DNA of 64,000 nucleotides from a beta proteobacterium AAP51 (GTDB lineage Bacteria > Pseudomonadota > Gammaproteobacteria > Burkholderiales > Burkholderiaceae_C): NCBI GenBank assembly GCA_001295905.1, contig LJHT01000019.1:124001-188000 (forward strand), given 5' to 3'. Below, piece by piece: positions 1 to 26,226 of this stretch (its first letter is position 1; each line of letters opens with the position of its first letter). The translations under genes were made by a program, and so were the position numbers. The notes under the pieces were generated by a model. The model ran no database searches. It was given only the letters and a program-made list of their open reading frames with translations, and was not told the DNA's origin.

Positions 1-712
1 GGTTGGCGTCGGACACCAGCGTCACGAAGCGGAAACCCAGCGCCACGCGGGCCTGGGCCACGTCGGTGCGGCCGTTGTGGATGCCAGCCACCACACCGTG
101 CGCGCGGGCGCGGGCCACCACATGTTCGATGGCCTGCTGCACCTTGGGCTCGACGTCGTCGAAAGTGGGCTTGCAGCCCAGGCTGAGCGAAAGGTCGGAA
201 GGGCCGATGTAGATGGCATCCAGCCCTTCCACCGAGAGGATGGCGTCGAGGTTGTCCAGCGCCTGCGCGGTTTCGATCATCGCGAAAGCCACGATCTCGC
301 GGTTGGCCTGGGCCACGTAGTCGGCGCCGTACACCTGCGCGGCGCGCAGCGGGCCCACGCTGCGAGTGCCCTGCGGCGCGTAGTGCGTCCAGGCCACGAG
401 CTTCTGCGCGTCTTCGCGCGTGTTCACCATCGGGCAGATGACGCCCAAAGCCCCGGCGTCCAGCGCGCGCATCAGGATGCCGGGCTCCAGCCAGGGCACG
501 CGCACGATGGGCACTGTGGCCGTGGCGCTGATCGCCTGCAGCATGGGCAGCAGGCTGTCGGCGGCGGCCAGGCCGTGCTGCAGGTCGATGGTGAGGGTGT
601 CGTAGCCCTGGCGTGCCATCAGCTCGGCGCCGAAGCTGTCGGGGATGGCCAGCCAGCCGTTCAGCGCGGCGCGGTCTTGCGCCCACAGCTGGCGCAGGGG
701 GTTGGGTGTCAT
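1..712 (-). CDS. HpcH/HpaI-family 2-keto-3-deoxy acid aldolase (3' end cut by window edge)
   Basis: Class II metal-dependent aldolase of the HpaI/GarL/RhmA family, which splits 2-keto-3-deoxy (aldarate or sugar) acids into pyruvate and an aldehyde. Visible family residues are the His of IDLQHG, the Arg of PIVRVPW, the Glu of FAMIETAQ and the Asp of YIGPSDLSLSLG, matching the metal and substrate positions of HpaI. The ATG at 712 gives MTPNPLRQLW; about 237 residues lie in the window and the C-terminus is missing. It sits 56 bases downstream of the IclR gene on the same strand. With garD in the same locus, a GarL-like role (5-keto-4-deoxyglucarate cleavage) is a reasonable inference, but related aldolases for deoxyrhamnonate or hydroxyketoheptanedioate cannot be excluded from sequence alone. 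Confidence 0.85.
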   Translation of the reverse strand, partial: MTPNPLRQLWAQDRAALNGWLAIPDSFGAELMARQGYDTLTIDLQHGLAAADSLLPMLQAISATATVPIVRVPWLEPGILMRALDAGALGVICPMVNTREDAQKLVAWTHYAPQGTRSVGPLRAAQVYGADYVAQANREIVAFAMIETAQALDNLDAILSVEGLDAIYIGPSDLSLSLGCKPTFDDVEPKVQQAIEHVVARARAHGVVAGIHNGRTDVAQARVALGFRFVTLVSDAN

Positions 713-768: not shown

Positions 769-1590
769 TCAGCGGCGGGCGCCAGCTTCCACCGGGTCCA
801 GCGGGAACTGCGTACAGCCGAGCTGGCGCGAGATGTCGCGGCTGGCGTCGCGCAGCATGGCCACGAGCTCGGGTTCGCGGGTGATGTCGTAGCGGAAGGT
901 GGGGAAGCTCACGCTCAGCCCCGCCACCACCTGGTTCTGGCGGTCGAAGATGGGAATGCCGGCGCAGCGGATGTGGTCGTCGAACTCTTCGCGGTCTTGC
1001 CCGAAACCCTGGGCCAGCGTGCGTTCCAGCTCGGCGGCGAAGGCCTCGGGCGAGGTGATGGTCTTCTCGCGGTAGGCCTTGAAGTCACAGCCCTTGAGGA
1101 TGTGCGCGCGGCGCGCCGGGTTCTCCCAGGCCAGCAGCACCTTGCCGATGGCGGTGCAGTGCAGCGGCGCGCGCCGGCCCACGCGGGAATACATGCCCAG
1201 CATGTGGCGGCTGTCGACCTTGTGCACGTAGATGATCTCGCTGTCGATCAGCGTGCCCAGGTGCACCGTTTCGCCAGTGGCGTCGCTCAGGCTCTGCATG
1301 TGCGGCTTGGCGATTTCCACCAGGTCGGGGTACTGCAGCGCCTTGGCGCCCAGCTCGAACATGCGCATGGAAAGCCCGTAGCGCTCGCTGTCCACCTGCT
1401 GGCGCACGTAACCCAGGGTCTTCATGGTCTGCAGGAAGCGGTAGACCGTGGCCTTGGGCATGGCCAGGCGCACCGAGAGCTCGCTGATGCCGGTTTCGTC
1501 CCGTTCCGATAGCGACTGCAGGATGGCAAAGACCTTCAGCACTGCGGCCACCGATTCGGGCTGCCGGGCGTCGTAGCTGTCGTCGTCCAT
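769..1590 (-). CDS. IclR-family transcriptional regulator, probable KdgR-type pectin regulator
   Basis: A 273-residue IclR-family protein. Residues about 12-72 form the winged helix-turn-helix (AVLKVFAILQSL, MPKATVYRFLQTM) and about 87-265 the effector-binding domain (GETVHLGTL, GRRAPLHCTAIGKVLLA). IclR proteins bind short inverted repeats and respond to a small metabolite; KdgR of enterobacteria belongs here and answers to 2-keto-3-deoxygluconate. The gene lies directly after the oligogalacturonide operon and before the aldolase, all on one strand. The inverted repeats GAAnCnnnGnTTC in the kduD/kdgF and kdgK/udh control regions are its likely operators. Its own 89-base upstream gap shows only a GAAAC half-site. 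The pectin role is inferred from context; the family call is firm. Confidence 0.9.
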   Translation of the reverse strand: MDDDSYDARQPESVAAVLKVFAILQSLSERDETGISELSVRLAMPKATVYRFLQTMKTLGYVRQQVDSERYGLSMRMFELGAKALQYPDLVEIAKPHMQSLSDATGETVHLGTLIDSEIIYVHKVDSRHMLGMYSRVGRRAPLHCTAIGKVLLAWENPARRAHILKGCDFKAYREKTITSPEAFAAELERTLAQGFGQDREEFDDHIRCAGIPIFDRQNQVVAGLSVSFPTFRYDITREPELVAMLRDASRDISRQLGCTQFPLDPVEAGARR

Positions 1591-9549: not shown

Positions 9550-10311
9550 TCAGCGGGCGAGCCAGCCGCCGTCGACGGCCACGGTGTAGCCGTTGACATA
9601 GTCGCTGGCCTGGCTGGCCAGGAAGACCACCGGCCCGGCCAGATCGTCGGGCACGCCCCAGCGGCCGGCGGGAATGCGTTCCAGGATGGACGCGTTGCGC
9701 CCTTCGTCGGCGCGCAGCGCGGCGGTGTTGTTGGTGGCCATGTAGCCCGGGGCGATGGCGTTCACGTTGATCTTGTGCGCCGCCCACTCGTTGGCCATCA
9801 ACCGCGTGATGCCCATCACGCCGCTCTTGCTGGCGGTGTAGCTGGGCACGCGCACGCCGCCCTGGAAGCTGAGCATCGAGGCCACGTTGATGATCTTCCC
9901 GCCCCGGCCCTGGGCCATGAACTGACGCGCCACGGCCTGGGCGAAGAAGAAGACCGACTTGAGGTTGATGTCGATGACGTCGTCCCAGTCCTTCTCGCTG
10001 AACTTGATGGCGTCTTCGCGGCGGATGATGCCCGCGTTGTTCACCAGGATGTCGACGCTGCCCGTCAGCTCGCGGGCGCGGGCCACCAGGCCCTCGATGC
10101 AGCCGATGTCGCTGAGGTTGGCGCGCAGGTCGAGGAAGCGCCGGCCCAGGGCCTCGATCTGGGCCTGCGTCTCGGTGGGGGCGCTCACGTTGACGCCCAC
10201 GATGTCAGCGCCCGCTTGCGCCAGAGCGCGTGCCATGCCTTGGCCCAGGCCGGTGTCGCAGCCTGTGACGATGGCCACCCGGCCTTGTAGTTGGAAGGTG
10301 TTCAGAACCAT
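9550..10311 (-). CDS. kduD: 2-dehydro-3-deoxy-D-gluconate 5-dehydrogenase KduD
   Basis: 253-residue short-chain dehydrogenase, the exact size of KduD, which reduces 2,5-diketo-3-deoxygluconate to KDG with NADH in the cytoplasm. It shows the cofactor motif TGCDTGLGQG, NNAG, the active-site YTASKSG and the C-terminal VDGGWLAR ending typical of KduD. The ATG at 10311 is preceded by a good ribosome site (GGAGA nine bases upstream). It is the first gene of the leftward operon, whose promoter region carries three overlapping or adjacent inverted repeats shared with divergent kdgF. No kduI isomerase gene, the step before KduD, is in this window. Confidence 0.93.
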   Translation of the reverse strand: MVLNTFQLQGRVAIVTGCDTGLGQGMARALAQAGADIVGVNVSAPTETQAQIEALGRRFLDLRANLSDIGCIEGLVARARELTGSVDILVNNAGIIRREDAIKFSEKDWDDVIDINLKSVFFFAQAVARQFMAQGRGGKIINVASMLSFQGGVRVPSYTASKSGVMGITRLMANEWAAHKINVNAIAPGYMATNNTAALRADEGRNASILERIPAGRWGVPDDLAGPVVFLASQASDYVNGYTVAVDGGWLAR

Positions 10312-10358: not shown

Positions 10359-10408
10359 TGAACCGGTGTTTCAGAATCATGGTTTCTAATTAGTGAACCG
10401 CTGTTTCT
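10359..10408. promoter_or_regulatory. Three-site operator array in the kduD/kdgF divergent promoter region
   Basis: Three 15-base inverted repeats fit GAAnCnnnGnTTC: TGAACCGGTGTTTCA at 10359-10373, AGAATCATGGTTTCT at 10373-10387 and TGAACCGCTGTTTCT at 10394-10408. Centres are 14 and 21 bases apart. This half-site (GAAAC-like) resembles operators of KdgR and other IclR proteins. The third site overlaps a possible weak -35 element for kdgF (TTTCTT 10404-10409 with TACAGT at 10427-10432). The same motif recurs between kdgK and udh. The sites are read directly; binding by the IclR protein at 769-1590 is inferred. Confidence 0.72.
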
Positions 10409-10463: not shown

Positions 10464-10796
10464 ATGAATCCCTACTTCCTCGATGCCGAGACCCCTTGGC
10501 ACGAACTCGGCGACGGCATCCGCCGCAAGATCGTCGGCCACACGCCCGGGCTGATGAGCGTGCTGGTGCAGTTCGACAAGGGCGCCGTGGGCACACCGCA
10601 TGCCCACGACGAGTACGACCAGATCGCCTACGTCATCAGCGGCGCCTTCGAGGCCGAGGTGGCCGGCGTCAAGCGCGTGCTGCGCCCAGGCGACGCCTTC
10701 ATCGCGCCGCGCCAGCACCTGCATGGTGTGGTGGCGCTGGAGGCCGGCAGCACCCTGCTCGACCAGTTCACCCCGCGGCGGGCCGACTACCTCTAG
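10464..10796 (+). CDS. kdgF: KdgF-type cupin, unsaturated uronate linearisation
   Basis: 110-residue single-domain cupin. KdgF proteins speed the ring opening of unsaturated galacturonate (product of oligogalacturonate lyase) to 5-keto-4-deoxyuronate. Metal-binding cupin motifs are visible: GTPHAHDEYDQIAYVISG (motif 1, two His and a Glu/Asp position) and a later His in APRQHLHGVVAL. The start ATG at 10464 has a strong ribosome site (CGGAGACAAG). It is divergent from kduD and shares its operator array. The 211 bases between it and the receptor gene are GC-rich and show no further gene or obvious promoter, so cotranscription with the receptor is possible. Confidence 0.87.
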   Translation: MNPYFLDAETPWHELGDGIRRKIVGHTPGLMSVLVQFDKGAVGTPHAHDEYDQIAYVISGAFEAEVAGVKRVLRPGDAFIAPRQHLHGVVALEAGSTLLDQFTPRRADYL

Positions 10797-21792: not shown

Positions 21793-21822
21793 GAGATCGG
21801 GCGGTGGCCTCAGCCCGGTCTC
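21793..21822. terminator. Hairpin between converging YgjV-family gene and kdgK
   Basis: GAGATCGGGC (21793-21802) pairs with GCCCGGTCTC (21813-21822): ten base pairs, one of them a G-T wobble, around a ten-base loop. It sits exactly between two converging genes and touches the kdgK stop, so it could stop transcription from both sides. There is no T-run, so rho-independent strength is doubtful. Confidence 0.5.
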
Positions 21823-22768
21823 ACCCAGGCATCGGCGCCGGCATGGCTTCGGCGGGAATGATGGCGCCGTGGTGCTGCACCACCACCGCGGCCAGTGCGT
21901 TGCCGGCGGCCGCTGCGGCCGCGGGGCAGGCGCCGCCCAGGCGTGCGGCGAGATAGGCGCCGGCAAAGCTGTCGCCGGCGGCGGTGGTGTCCACCACCCG
22001 TGCCACGCGCTGCGTCGGCACAAGCACGGGCGCCTCGCCCGCCAGGCGCACCAGGGTCTCGGCCGCGCCGTTCTTCACCACCAGTTCGGGGCAGGGCAGG
22101 GCCAGCGTGCGCTGCAGCGCAGCCTCGGCGCTGCGCAGGCCCCACAGCGCCTGCTCGTCGTCCAGCGACAGCAGCAGCGTGCTGGCCAGCCCCATGAACT
22201 GCGCGAACACCGCCTGGGCCACGGCCTGCTCGGGCCACAGGCGCGGGCGGTAGTTGTTGTCGAACACCACCTGCGCACCGCGCGCGCGCAGGGCCTGCGC
22301 CAGCGCCGCCAGCCGCGCGCGCCCGGCGGGCGGCAGGATGGCCAGGCTGATGCCGCTGAAGTAGAGCGCGTCGATCTGCCCGGCCTGCTGCTCCAGCGGC
22401 GTGGCGCCCTCGGGGGTGTCGAAGTAGGCGCGCGCCGCCGCCTGTTCGCGCCAGTAGTGGAAGCGGCGTTCGCCTTGCGCGTCCACCTCGATGAGGTACA
22501 GCCCCGGCAGCTTGCCCGGCAGGCGCCGCACCAGGCCGGTGTGCAGGCCCTCGGCCTGCCAGCGCTGCAGCAGGCCGCTGCTGAGGCCGTCGTCGCCCAG
22601 CGCGGTGGCGTAGTCCACCTGCAGGCCCTGGCGCGCGCCGCAGCGGGCCAGGTAGACGGCGGTGTTCAGCGTGTCGCCGCCATAGCCCTGCTGCAGGGCC
22701 CCGAAAGGCAGGCCCCGCAGTTCGAGCATGCATTCGCCGAAGGCCACCACCCGCATCAGCCCACCCAT
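21821..22768 (-). CDS. kdgK: 2-dehydro-3-deoxygluconokinase (PfkB family)
   Basis: 315 residues of the ribokinase/PfkB family. KdgK phosphorylates KDG to KDPG with ATP in the cytoplasm, feeding the Entner-Doudoroff aldolase. Visible are the N-terminal sugar-binding region (VVAFGECMLELRG, GGDTLNTAVYLAR) and the PfkB signature with catalytic Asp in VVDTTAAGDSFAGAYLA. MRVVAFGE at 22756 is an alternative start. It is divergent from udh, with a perfect GAAAC-ATC-GTTTC inverted repeat between them, linking it to the same regulator as kduD. No KDPG aldolase gene is in this window. Confidence 0.9.
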   Translation of the reverse strand: MGGLMRVVAFGECMLELRGLPFGALQQGYGGDTLNTAVYLARCGARQGLQVDYATALGDDGLSSGLLQRWQAEGLHTGLVRRLPGKLPGLYLIEVDAQGERRFHYWREQAAARAYFDTPEGATPLEQQAGQIDALYFSGISLAILPPAGRARLAALAQALRARGAQVVFDNNYRPRLWPEQAVAQAVFAQFMGLASTLLLSLDDEQALWGLRSAEAALQRTLALPCPELVVKNGAAETLVRLAGEAPVLVPTQRVARVVDTTAAGDSFAGAYLAARLGGACPAAAAAAGNALAAVVVQHHGAIIPAEAMPAPMPG

Positions 22769-22790: not shown

Positions 22791-22803
22791 GAAACATCGT
22801 TTC
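22791..22803. promoter_or_regulatory. Probable IclR/KdgR operator between kdgK and udh
   Basis: GAAACATCGTTTC is a perfect 5-3-5 inverted repeat and an exact match to the GAAnCnnnGnTTC pattern found three times before kduD/kdgF. It lies 23 bases upstream of the kdgK start and 55 bases upstream of the udh start, a place from which it could control both. Identity of the binding protein is inferred. Confidence 0.7.
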
Positions 22804-22857
22804 GATATTCTAGGCAGCTTGCCTTCTCGCCCTGCTCCGGGCCGACCCTGGGCCTTG

Positions 22858-23688
22858 ATGAACCACCTGTCTGCTGCCGCGCCGCCGGTCTTCTCTACCC
22901 TGCTGCTCACAGGCGCTGCCGGCATGCTGGGGCGTGCCGTGGCCCCGGGCCTGCGCCGCCTGTGCCAGCGTCTGCGCCTGAGCGACCTGCCGGCGCCGCT
23001 GGCCACCCTGCCGCTGCAGCCCGGCGACGAAGCCTGCCCCGCCGACCTGGCCGATGCCGAGGCGATGAACGCGCTGCTGCACGGCGTGCAGGCCGTGGTG
23101 CACCTGGGCGGGGTGTCGCAGGAAGGGCCGTTTGCGCCCATCCTGGCCGCGAACCTGGCGGGTACCACGCACCTGTATGAAGCTGCGCGCCGCGCCGGCA
23201 CGCGCCGCATCGTCTTCGCCAGCAGCAACCACGTGACGGGCGGCTACCCGCAAGGCCAGAACCTCACCACGGCCGATGCGCCGCGGCCCGATGGTTTCTA
23301 CGGCGCCAGCAAGCTGTACGGCGAAGGCCTGGCCGCGCTGTACTGGCAGCGCTACGGCATCGAGAGCGTGTGCCTGCGCATCGGCAGTGCGACAGCCGAA
23401 CCCACCGACGCGCGCGCGCTGGCCACCTGGCTGAGCCTGCGCGACCTGCAGCAGCTGCTGCACTGCGCGCTCACCGCGCCCAGGGTCGGCTGCACCGTGG
23501 CCTATGGCTGCAGCGCCAACAAGCGCCGCTGGTGGCACGACGAAGCCACCTGGGCCCGCCTGGGCTACGCGCCGCAAGACAACGCCGAGGCCTGGGCTGC
23601 ACAGCTGCAGGACCTGCTGCTGCCCGAAGGCCCGCAGCGCGAGCTGCAAGGCGGCAGCTTCCTCGGCATCGGCCCCTTCGATCATTGA
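22858..23688 (+). CDS. udh: Uronate dehydrogenase (NAD-dependent SDR/epimerase type)
   Basis: 276 residues. Uronate dehydrogenase oxidises galacturonate or glucuronate with NAD to the aldaro-lactone. It shows the extended-SDR nucleotide motif LLTGAAGMLGRAVA, VVHLGGVSQEGPF, ASSNHVTGGY and the catalytic YGASKLYGE, all typical of Udh. The ATG at 22858 is chosen because upstream sequence in frame carries the operator and is unlike the family. Ten bases downstream begins the SMP-30 lactonase gene and then garD, so the three genes encode consecutive steps of the oxidative galacturonate route. Confidence 0.88.
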   Translation: MNHLSAAAPPVFSTLLLTGAAGMLGRAVAPGLRRLCQRLRLSDLPAPLATLPLQPGDEACPADLADAEAMNALLHGVQAVVHLGGVSQEGPFAPILAANLAGTTHLYEAARRAGTRRIVFASSNHVTGGYPQGQNLTTADAPRPDGFYGASKLYGEGLAALYWQRYGIESVCLRIGSATAEPTDARALATWLSLRDLQQLLHCALTAPRVGCTVAYGCSANKRRWWHDEATWARLGYAPQDNAEAWAAQLQDLLLPEGPQRELQGGSFLGIGPFDH

Positions 23689-23698
23689 GCCTCACCGC

Positions 23699-24670
23699 AT
23701 GAACGACGCCTTCACCGCGAACCTGCGCCTGCCCGACCCGCGCATCGAGGTGCTGGACGAAGCCTTCCTGCCGCTGCGCCTGTTCTCGGGCACGGTGCAG
23801 CGGCTCTACACCGGTGCGGCCTGGGCCGAAGGGCCGGTGTGGTTCGGCGACGGGCGTTATCTGCTCTTCAGCGACATCCCGAACAACCGCGTGCTGCGCT
23901 GGGACGAATGCACCGGCGGCACTGCCGTCTTCCGCCAGCCCTCGAACCACGCCAACGGCCTGGCGCGCGACCGCCAGGGCCGGCTGCTCACCTGCGAGCA
24001 CCTCACCCGGCGCGTCACGCGCACCGAGCACGACGGGCGCCTCACGGTGCTGGCCAGCCACTTCGAGGGCAAGCCGCTGAACTCGCCCAACGACATCGTC
24101 TGCCGCAGCGACGGCAGCGTGTGGTTCACCGACCCGCCTTTCGGCATCAGCGGCTGGTGGGAAGGCGAGCCGGCCACGCCCGAACTGCCGCACGGCGTCT
24201 ACCGCCTCGATGGCGAGAGTGGCGAACTGCAGATGCTGCTGAGCGACCTGCAGTGCCCCAACGGCCTGGCCTTCACGCCCGACGAGCAGCAGCTCTATGT
24301 GGTGGAAAGCCGCGCCACCCCGCACCGCAAGATCTGGCGCTACGACGTGGCCGGGCAGGGCGCGGGCACCACGCTGCGCAACCGCGAGCTGTTCGTGGAT
24401 GCCGCCGGGCACGGCGCCTTCGACGGTATCGCGGTGGACGAGCTCGGCAACGTCTGGTGCGGCCTGGGCAGCAACGGCGCGCTCGATGCAAAACCCGAGG
24501 CACTGGACGGCGTGCGCGTCTACAACCGCGAGGGCCGACCGCTGGCGCACATCCACCTGCCCGAGCGTTGCGCCAACCTGTGTTTCGGTGGCGCGCGGCG
24601 CAACCGGCTCTTCATGGCGGCCAGCCACTCGCTCTATGCCTTGCATGTGAACACGCGGGGCGCGGTGTGA
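23699..24670 (+). CDS. SMP-30/gluconolactonase-family lactonase, probable galactarolactone hydrolase
   Basis: 323-residue six-bladed propeller of the SMP-30/LRE family. Metal-site residues are visible as the Glu of WAEGPVWF, the Asn of NSPNDIV and the Asp of [13 protein letters not shown]. Family members hydrolyse sugar lactones using a divalent metal. Placed between udh, which makes galactaro-lactone, and garD, which uses galactarate, it most likely opens that lactone. It has no signal peptide and so is cytoplasmic. Its stop overlaps the garD start as GTGA. The exact lactone preferred cannot be read from the sequence. Confidence 0.85.
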
Positions 24671-26226
24671 ACGCCGCGCTGGCTGCCGATCGTCGTGTGC
24701 TGCAGCAGCACGCGCAAGACAACGTGGCCATCGCCGTGCAGGCCGGCGGCTTGCCCGCAGGCACGCTGCTGGCCGGCGGCCTGGTGCTGCGCGACGCCGT
24801 GCCGCAGGCGCACAAGGTGGCGCTGCAGGACATTCCGGCCGGCGCGCCCGTGCGCCGCTACGGCGTGGCCATCGCCCATGCGCTGCGCGACATCGCGGCC
24901 GGCAGCTGGGTGCACGAGCGCCTGCTGCAGCCGCTGCCCGCGCGTGAACTGCAAGGCCTGCCCATGGCCACCGCCGTGCCGCCTGCCGCGCCGCCGCTGC
25001 AGGGCCACAGCTTCCAGGGCTACCGCAACCCCGACGGCAGCGTGGGCACGCGCAACCTGCTGGCCATCAGCACCACGGTGCAGTGCGTGGCGGGCGTGCT
25101 GGACGTGGCGCTGCAGCGCATCCGCAGCGAGCTGCTGCCGAGATTCCCCCACGTCGACGGCGTGGTGGGGCTGGAACACGCCTACGGCTGCGGCGTGGCC
25201 ATCAACGCGCCGGGCGCCGAGATTCCCATCCGCACGCTGCGCCACCTGGCGATGAACCCGAACTTCGGCGGCGAGGTGATGCTGCTCGGCCTGGGCTGCG
25301 AAAAGCTGCAGCCCGAGCTGCTGCTGCCGCCTGGCAGCCTGCCGCTGCACACCGCGCAGACGCTGAGCACGCTGCGCCTGCAAGACCCGCAGCACGTGGG
25401 TTTCGGCGCGATGGTCGAGCACCTCGTGCAAAGCGCCGTGCCCCACCTGGAGCGCCTGAACGCGCGCCGCCGCAGCACCGTGCCGGCCAGCGCGCTGGTG
25501 GTGGGCGTGCAGTGCGGCGGCAGCGACGCCTTCAGCGGCCTGACCGCCAACCCCGCCGTGGGCCACTGCACCGACCTGCTGCTGCGCGCCGGCGCCACCG
25601 TGCTGTTCAGCGAAACCACCGAGGTGCGCGACGCCATCGCGCAGCTCACCGCGCGCGCCGCCACGCCCGCCGTGGCGCAGCGCCTCGTCGACGAGATGGC
25701 CTGGTACGACGCCTACCTGGCGCGCGGGGGTGCCGACCGCAGCGCCAACACCACGCCGGGCAACAAGGCCGGTGGGCTGAGCCACATCGTCGAGAAGGCC
25801 ATGGGCAGCGTGGTGAAGAGCGGCAGCGCGGCCATCACCGGCGTGCTCTCGCCGGGTGAGCGCGTGCCGCCAGGCCAGCCCGGCCTGTACTACTGCGCCA
25901 CGCCGGCGAGCGACTTCATCTGCGGCACGCTGCAGCTGGCCGCGGGCATGAACCTGCATGTCTTCACCACCGGCCGCGGCACGCCTTACGGCCTGGCCGC
26001 CTGCCCGGTGCTGAAGGTGGCCACGCGCAGCGAGCTGGCAGAACGCTGGCACGACCTGATGGACATCGACGCCGGCCCCATCGCCGACGGCCGCGCCACC
26101 GTGCAGGAGATCGGCGAGCTGATGTTCCGCAGCCTGCTGGCCGTGGCCAGCGGCCAGCGCACCTGGGCCGAGCACTGGGGCCTGCACAACGCGCTGGTGC
26201 TGTTCAACCCGGCGCCGGTCACCTGA
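24667..26226 (+). CDS. garD: Galactarate dehydratase GarD
   Basis: 519 residues starting at a GTG that overlaps the previous stop (GTGA). An N-terminal SAF domain (about 12-85: [26 protein letters not shown]) is followed by the large UxaA/GarD domain with EGYRN-like [58 protein letters not shown] and the C-terminal [16 protein letters not shown], an ending I associate with GarD rather than altronate dehydratase. The iron-dependent enzyme dehydrates galactarate to 5-keto-4-deoxyglucarate. Together with Udh and the lactonase it completes conversion of galacturonate to the substrate of a GarL-type aldolase such as the one at the window start. Confidence 0.92.

Follow-up and report, generated by a model that had tools for sequence, protein, structure and literature searches.

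The window analyzed here, 64,000 nucleotides of the genome of the Burkholderiales bacterium AAP51, raises the question of whether its KDG kinase gene and its oxidative galacturonate genes are controlled by the same regulator as its oligogalacturonide operon. The answer turns on a 13-mer, GAAACATCGTTTC, at 22791–22803, which lies inside the 89-bp gap between the divergent genes kdgK and udh, 22 bp from the start codon of kdgK and 54 bp from that of udh. We predict that this site is very probably an operator of the IclR-family protein KdgR, and judging from the sequence features described below it most likely serves to repress kdgK and udh–lactonase–garD together until repression is relieved by KDG.

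The site and its candidate regulator

The 13-mer has an asymmetric 3-bp center (ATC) flanked by perfect arms of 5 bp each, and it is the sole 10/10 match to GAAACNNNGTTTC within the window; the preliminary description, which had called this copy perfectly symmetric, was right about the arms but not about the center. It had also counted the site as the fourth copy of an operator, and this is borne out by three 9/10 copies in the kduD/kdgF region, GAACCGGTGTTTC (10360–10372), GAATCATGGTTTC (10374–10386), and GAACCGCTGTTTC (10395–10407), which support its assignment to the same operator type as the control region of the oligogalacturonide operon. There, kduD (9550–10311, minus strand) scores 427 bits on a longer ORF against the TIGR01832 cut-off of 339, and the gene at 10464–10796 (plus strand) encodes a KdgF-like cupin (Pfam Cupin_2), which we take to be KdgF. 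The copies at 10374–10407 form a pair spaced by 21 bp, or about two helix turns, and an identical 21-bp pair also occurs in the relatives L022, L023, L026, and G036.

The IclR gene that had been put forward as the common regulator (769–1590, minus strand) encodes the repressor KdgR according to its NCBIfam model (323 bits; cut-off 275). Its Pfam domains HTH_IclR and IclR_C are both over their cut-offs, and among solved structures it matches the KdgR effector domain 1ysp best. The genes around it encode a pectate lyase/pectinesterase, an oligogalacturonate lyase, ABC uptake components, and KduD. No operator was seen by eye upstream of kdgR (from 1590), and the gene may be transcribed from the kduD promoter.

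The site at 22791–22803 features the GAAAC-N3-GTTTC core (10/10) with A/T-rich flanks and fits the KdgR consensus given in the accessible text of work on gamma-proteobacteria (RWWGAAACGNCGTTTCAKKA; PMC8222616) and on Dickeya (AAATGAAACAnTGTTTCATTT; PMC5559549), although against the full Dickeya consensus it matches at 13 of 20 positions, below some of the other sites compared. The accessible part of the Dickeya study also states that KdgR is released by KDG (PMC5559549).

Base composition predicts 0.009 perfect copies in the window, and when the 89-bp gap was simulated 5000 times with a first-order Markov model, no perfect copy arose and a 9/10 copy arose seven times. When three mismatches were allowed, the window gave seven matches against a shuffle mean of 3.87, a number that 8 of 100 shuffles also reached and that is not significant alone. 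A perfect copy can be found somewhere in 131 of the 150 family genomes sampled, and its mere occurrence in a genome was rejected as stand-alone evidence for this reason. These last two results are what could be said for reading the palindrome as a chance string; set against the simulated gaps and against the preservation of place, flanks, and spacing in relatives, they leave that reading exceedingly improbable. The weight given to 22791–22803 rests on its position and its conservation, and not on the string alone.

Throughout the 5.1-Mb genome, matches with at most one mismatch occur at 47 places, versus 27 for a reversed control pattern. Two of these are perfect, namely the window site and a copy outside the window at C75:68453–68465 (L014:1501–1513), and the two share the string TTTTGAAACAnCGTTTCGATAnTCTA. 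A dhuI-like gene of the RpiB family follows the C75 copy at a distance of 180 bp; its product, known here by sequence, resembles DhuI-type isomerases (4u8e, gbs1892; E 2.1e-81), yet has its best solved match in 3c5y, a "Ribose/galactose isomerase". We take 4u8e (gbs1892) to be the streptococcal isomerase DhuI, and the C75 gene would then be a putative second target within the same pathway. The surroundings of 16 places outside the window were viewed, a majority of which fall within gene-like frames, and three (L014, L003, and L015) were read closely. The L003 site, ahead of a saccharopine-dehydrogenase-like gene, was taken as chance. The L015 site (L015:1501–1513; G000:C77:14820–14832) matches the core at 9/10 and the Dickeya consensus at 16/20, the best of seven own-genome sites compared; it lies partly within the end of a miaA-like gene, and a tonB-like gene about 220 bp downstream is a possible target because the locus has a TonB-dependent receptor.

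Distribution of the site among relatives

A scan for KdgK in named genomes yielded 43 loci, in which a site was scored when it matched at 9/10 or better within 300 bp upstream. All nine named Burkholderiales loci (L021–L029) have such a site upstream of kdgK, versus 2 of the 34 others. A separate family sample comprised 150 genomes, our own included; L021, L027, and L028 were taken as its members G011, G036, and G021, and by eye, the pairs L026/L027 and L022/L023 are each closely similar. KdgR at 73% identity or more is present in 15 of the 150 genomes, while 26 others have a match of at most 36%; the KdgR copy of G021 contains a stop codon within its match. In this sample, the site is found upstream of kdgK in 12 of 13 genomes with KdgR and in one of four without (Fisher 0.022), and upstream of udh in 7 of 11 with KdgR and in one of 19 lacking it (Fisher 0.0011), the udh comparison covering the best 30 of 69 places. 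The Fisher tests ignore relatedness, several loci are near-copies, and the numbers count loci rather than independent events.

The 39 regions collected (671,062 bases) hold 43 sites, whereas about six would be expected at the own-genome rate of 47 per 5.1 Mb. All but one fall in control regions: twenty belong to kdgK and/or udh, twenty to kdgF/kduD (that of G034, where kdgF is unmatched, was placed by its flanks), two to dhuI-like genes, and one lies inside a gene-like frame. Most read GAAAC(A/G)N(T/C)GTTTC with A/T-rich flanks, a pattern that is informative only in its center and flanks, as the sites were picked by a 9/10 match to the core. Six loci of the sample are dhuI-like; those of our genome, G030, and G111 have a site no more than 300 bp away, those of G034 and G077 do not, and the sixth, in G116, is interrupted by a contig end and was left out of this judgement.

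Operator and KdgR are strongly associated across genomes, with two exceptions. In G116, KdgR is present while neither kdgK nor udh has the site. The reverse holds for G066, which carries the site at kdgK/udh (L211:15113–15125, G066:C132) but lacks any IclR protein more than 30% identical to this KdgR; a histidine-kinase-like gene follows kdgK there. The case of G066, together with two further, weaker IclR matches in our own genome (28–29% identical to this KdgR), could suggest that a different transcription factor, for example another IclR protein, uses the site. We consider this very unlikely, given that KdgR and the site co-occur, that the consensus fits KdgR, and that at L022 and L023 the site stands between kdgK and a divergent kdgR. 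The operator is very probably one of KdgR, as the KdgR model is passed, the consensus fits, and relatives that have KdgR carry the site again at their kdgK and udh genes. The locus itself may be an accessory island, as G094, the sole other genome of the same genus sampled, gave no KdgR ortholog and no match to KdgK or Udh under the cut-offs applied.

Promoter architecture and a second inverted repeat

Two bases from the operator lies a conserved TATTCTA (22806–22812; TAGAATA on the minus strand). Read as TAGAAT it is a possible −10 element for kdgK, and read as TATTCT it is perhaps one for udh. An alignment of 13 promoters features AGAATA with small changes at this place (22806–22811 in the window), together with a second repeat resembling CAGGGT..CCCTG, while a strict sigma-70 promoter scan of the kdgK/udh gap found nothing.

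The arrangement bears on whether one site controls both directions. KdgR could bind but effectively control a single neighbor, most likely kdgK, with udh served by another promoter or regulator: the better −10-like hexamer, TAGAAT, faces kdgK by our reading, and in KdgR-bearing genomes the site is steadier with kdgK than with udh, being absent from udh in 4 of 11. In G075 and G077, however, udh has retained the upstream site with its flanks even though the search for kdgK gave no match at the cut-off used, and we regard control of one neighbor as unlikely compared with joint repression by KdgR.

The second element of the gap is an imperfect inverted repeat, CCGGGCCGACCCTG (22837–22850), the center of which is 46.5 bp from that of the operator. 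Of the 19 kdgK/udh sites examined, 13 have such a repeat, with 43.5 to 47.5 bp between the two centers; ten of these trained the profile, and three (G111, G108, and G030) are independent of the training. These same three are the ones that the repeat fits among nine held-out kdgK loci, the other six being G084, G021, G143, L022, L023, and L024. Three rows were left out of the profile: Bin5, which nearly duplicates G036, and G143 and I. livida, neither of which has a clear match. A chance figure of 1e-7 obtained for the repeat is too strong, as it uses a whole-region background and treats the loci as independent. The repeat is also kept in G066, and it persists where the neighbor is not udh, for example in G062 and G108. 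It was not found at this distance from kdgF/kduD sites (a G062 site among them has a 10.1-bit match at a different distance), and the idea that it belongs to every KdgR promoter was rejected on these grounds. An RNA hairpin in the udh leader was likewise rejected, as the z-score of −0.22 is no better than that of shuffles. Perhaps the repeat is a candidate activator site for kdgK, which is a guess.

Pathway logic and comparison with known systems

KDG is made from unsaturated pectin products via KduD and consumed by KdgK, whereas galacturonate is processed by uronate dehydrogenase (udh), a lactonase, and galactarate dehydratase (garD). The kinase gene (21821–22768, minus strand) encodes a PfkB sugar kinase that scores 351 bits, under the NCBIfam KdgK cut-off of 400, and the solved structures that match it best are annotated as sugar kinase YdjH and ketodeoxygluconokinase; the earlier naming of this gene therefore holds at the family level, below the strict cut-off, while the namings of udh and garD stand. 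Udh (22858–23688, plus strand) matches solved uronate dehydrogenases (3rft, E 1.3e-65). Ten bp past udh lies the gene of an SMP-30-type lactonase (23699–24670, plus strand; Pfam SGL on a longer ORF; 3dr2, E 1.5e-49), which overlaps by 4 bp with garD (24667–26226, plus strand; TIGR03248, 800 bits, cut-off 731). These three enzymes of the oxidative galacturonate pathway are present, and their genes likely form a single operon.

A search for UxaC, with which the isomerase route begins, gave no match in our genome but was positive in 7 of 14 control genomes, and udh–lactonase–garD is therefore the only galacturonate route found. The preliminary description had proposed that two competing routes are switched together here. 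The absent UxaC match led us to reject competition: kdgK serves KDG from unsaturated oligogalacturonides, and the kdgK and udh branches run in parallel on different substrates, so that the proposal is better replaced by parallel branches switched together.

The sole DHDPS-family gene found passes the DapA model and scores 110 against a cut-off of 374 for KdgD (5-dehydro-4-deoxyglucarate dehydratase), which seems to be absent from the genome. Directly downstream of kdgR is the gene of an HpcH/HpaI-family aldolase (1–712, minus strand, extending past the window start), for which the listed NCBIfam matches are all below their cut-offs. This aldolase may complete the galactarate branch where KdgD otherwise would. 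About 4 kb beyond it lies a glycerate 2-kinase-like gene that scores under its model cut-off.

From the site, its conservation, and the identities of KdgR and the enzymes, which are established at the level of sequence, we infer a mechanism in which a single site acts in both directions. KdgR bound at 22791–22803 would cover both divergent promoters, reaching the kdgK start region in one direction and, in the other, the DNA ahead of the −10-like element of udh, and would repress both kdgK and udh–lactonase–garD. Pectin lyase products would be converted via KduD into KDG, the presumed ligand, which would release KdgR and so induce both branches along with the genes for uptake and lyases that lie behind the three kduD/kdgF operators. 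Should KDG be the signal for KdgR here, as stated for Dickeya, the udh branch would be induced by the product of the other branch. A bolder proposal, which we advance tentatively and think on balance somewhat improbable, is that in pectin-eating Burkholderiales KDG from the unsaturated branch turns on, via KdgR, an oxidative galacturonate branch that makes no KDG, such that galacturonate alone does not induce it, and that a second factor at the repeat 46 bp away activates the same promoters.

As far as the accessible text of the relevant papers goes, the system resembles the KdgR regulon of Dickeya and other gamma-proteobacteria (PMC5559549, PMC8222616) in its IclR-family KdgR, its operator core, and its neighbors or targets, which include pectin lyase, kduD, and oligogalacturonide genes. 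It differs from that regulon in belonging to the Burkholderiales, a beta-proteobacterial order, and in the presence of the operator also before udh–lactonase–garD and the dhuI-like isomerase gene. On the same basis (PMC6353982), it also resembles the oxidative galacturonate pathway known from Agrobacterium and Pseudomonas, including the UxuL/UxuF variant of the lactonase, in that udh and a lactonase are neighbors, a galactarate step is present, and no UxaC was found; unlike that pathway, the genes described here have a KdgR-type operator, KdgD seems absent, and an HpcH/HpaI aldolase lies beside kdgR. Our literature searches, for which most subscription papers and all regulon databases were beyond reach, found no paper linking KdgR to udh, and in the accessible text of papers containing both "KdgR" and "uronate dehydrogenase", KdgR was confined to the reference list. 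The part available of a study in Burkholderia names kdgR and uxaAB genes and gives no regulon (PMC6829993). The type of switch is already known, and the target set is mildly new.

If the proposed mechanism is true, a single well-known repressor would control both branches of pectin catabolism, and this in a lineage where our searches found no described KdgR regulon. If KdgR senses KDG, udh would answer to oligogalacturonides and not to free galacturonate alone, and the second repeat would provide a concrete handle toward an unknown regulator.
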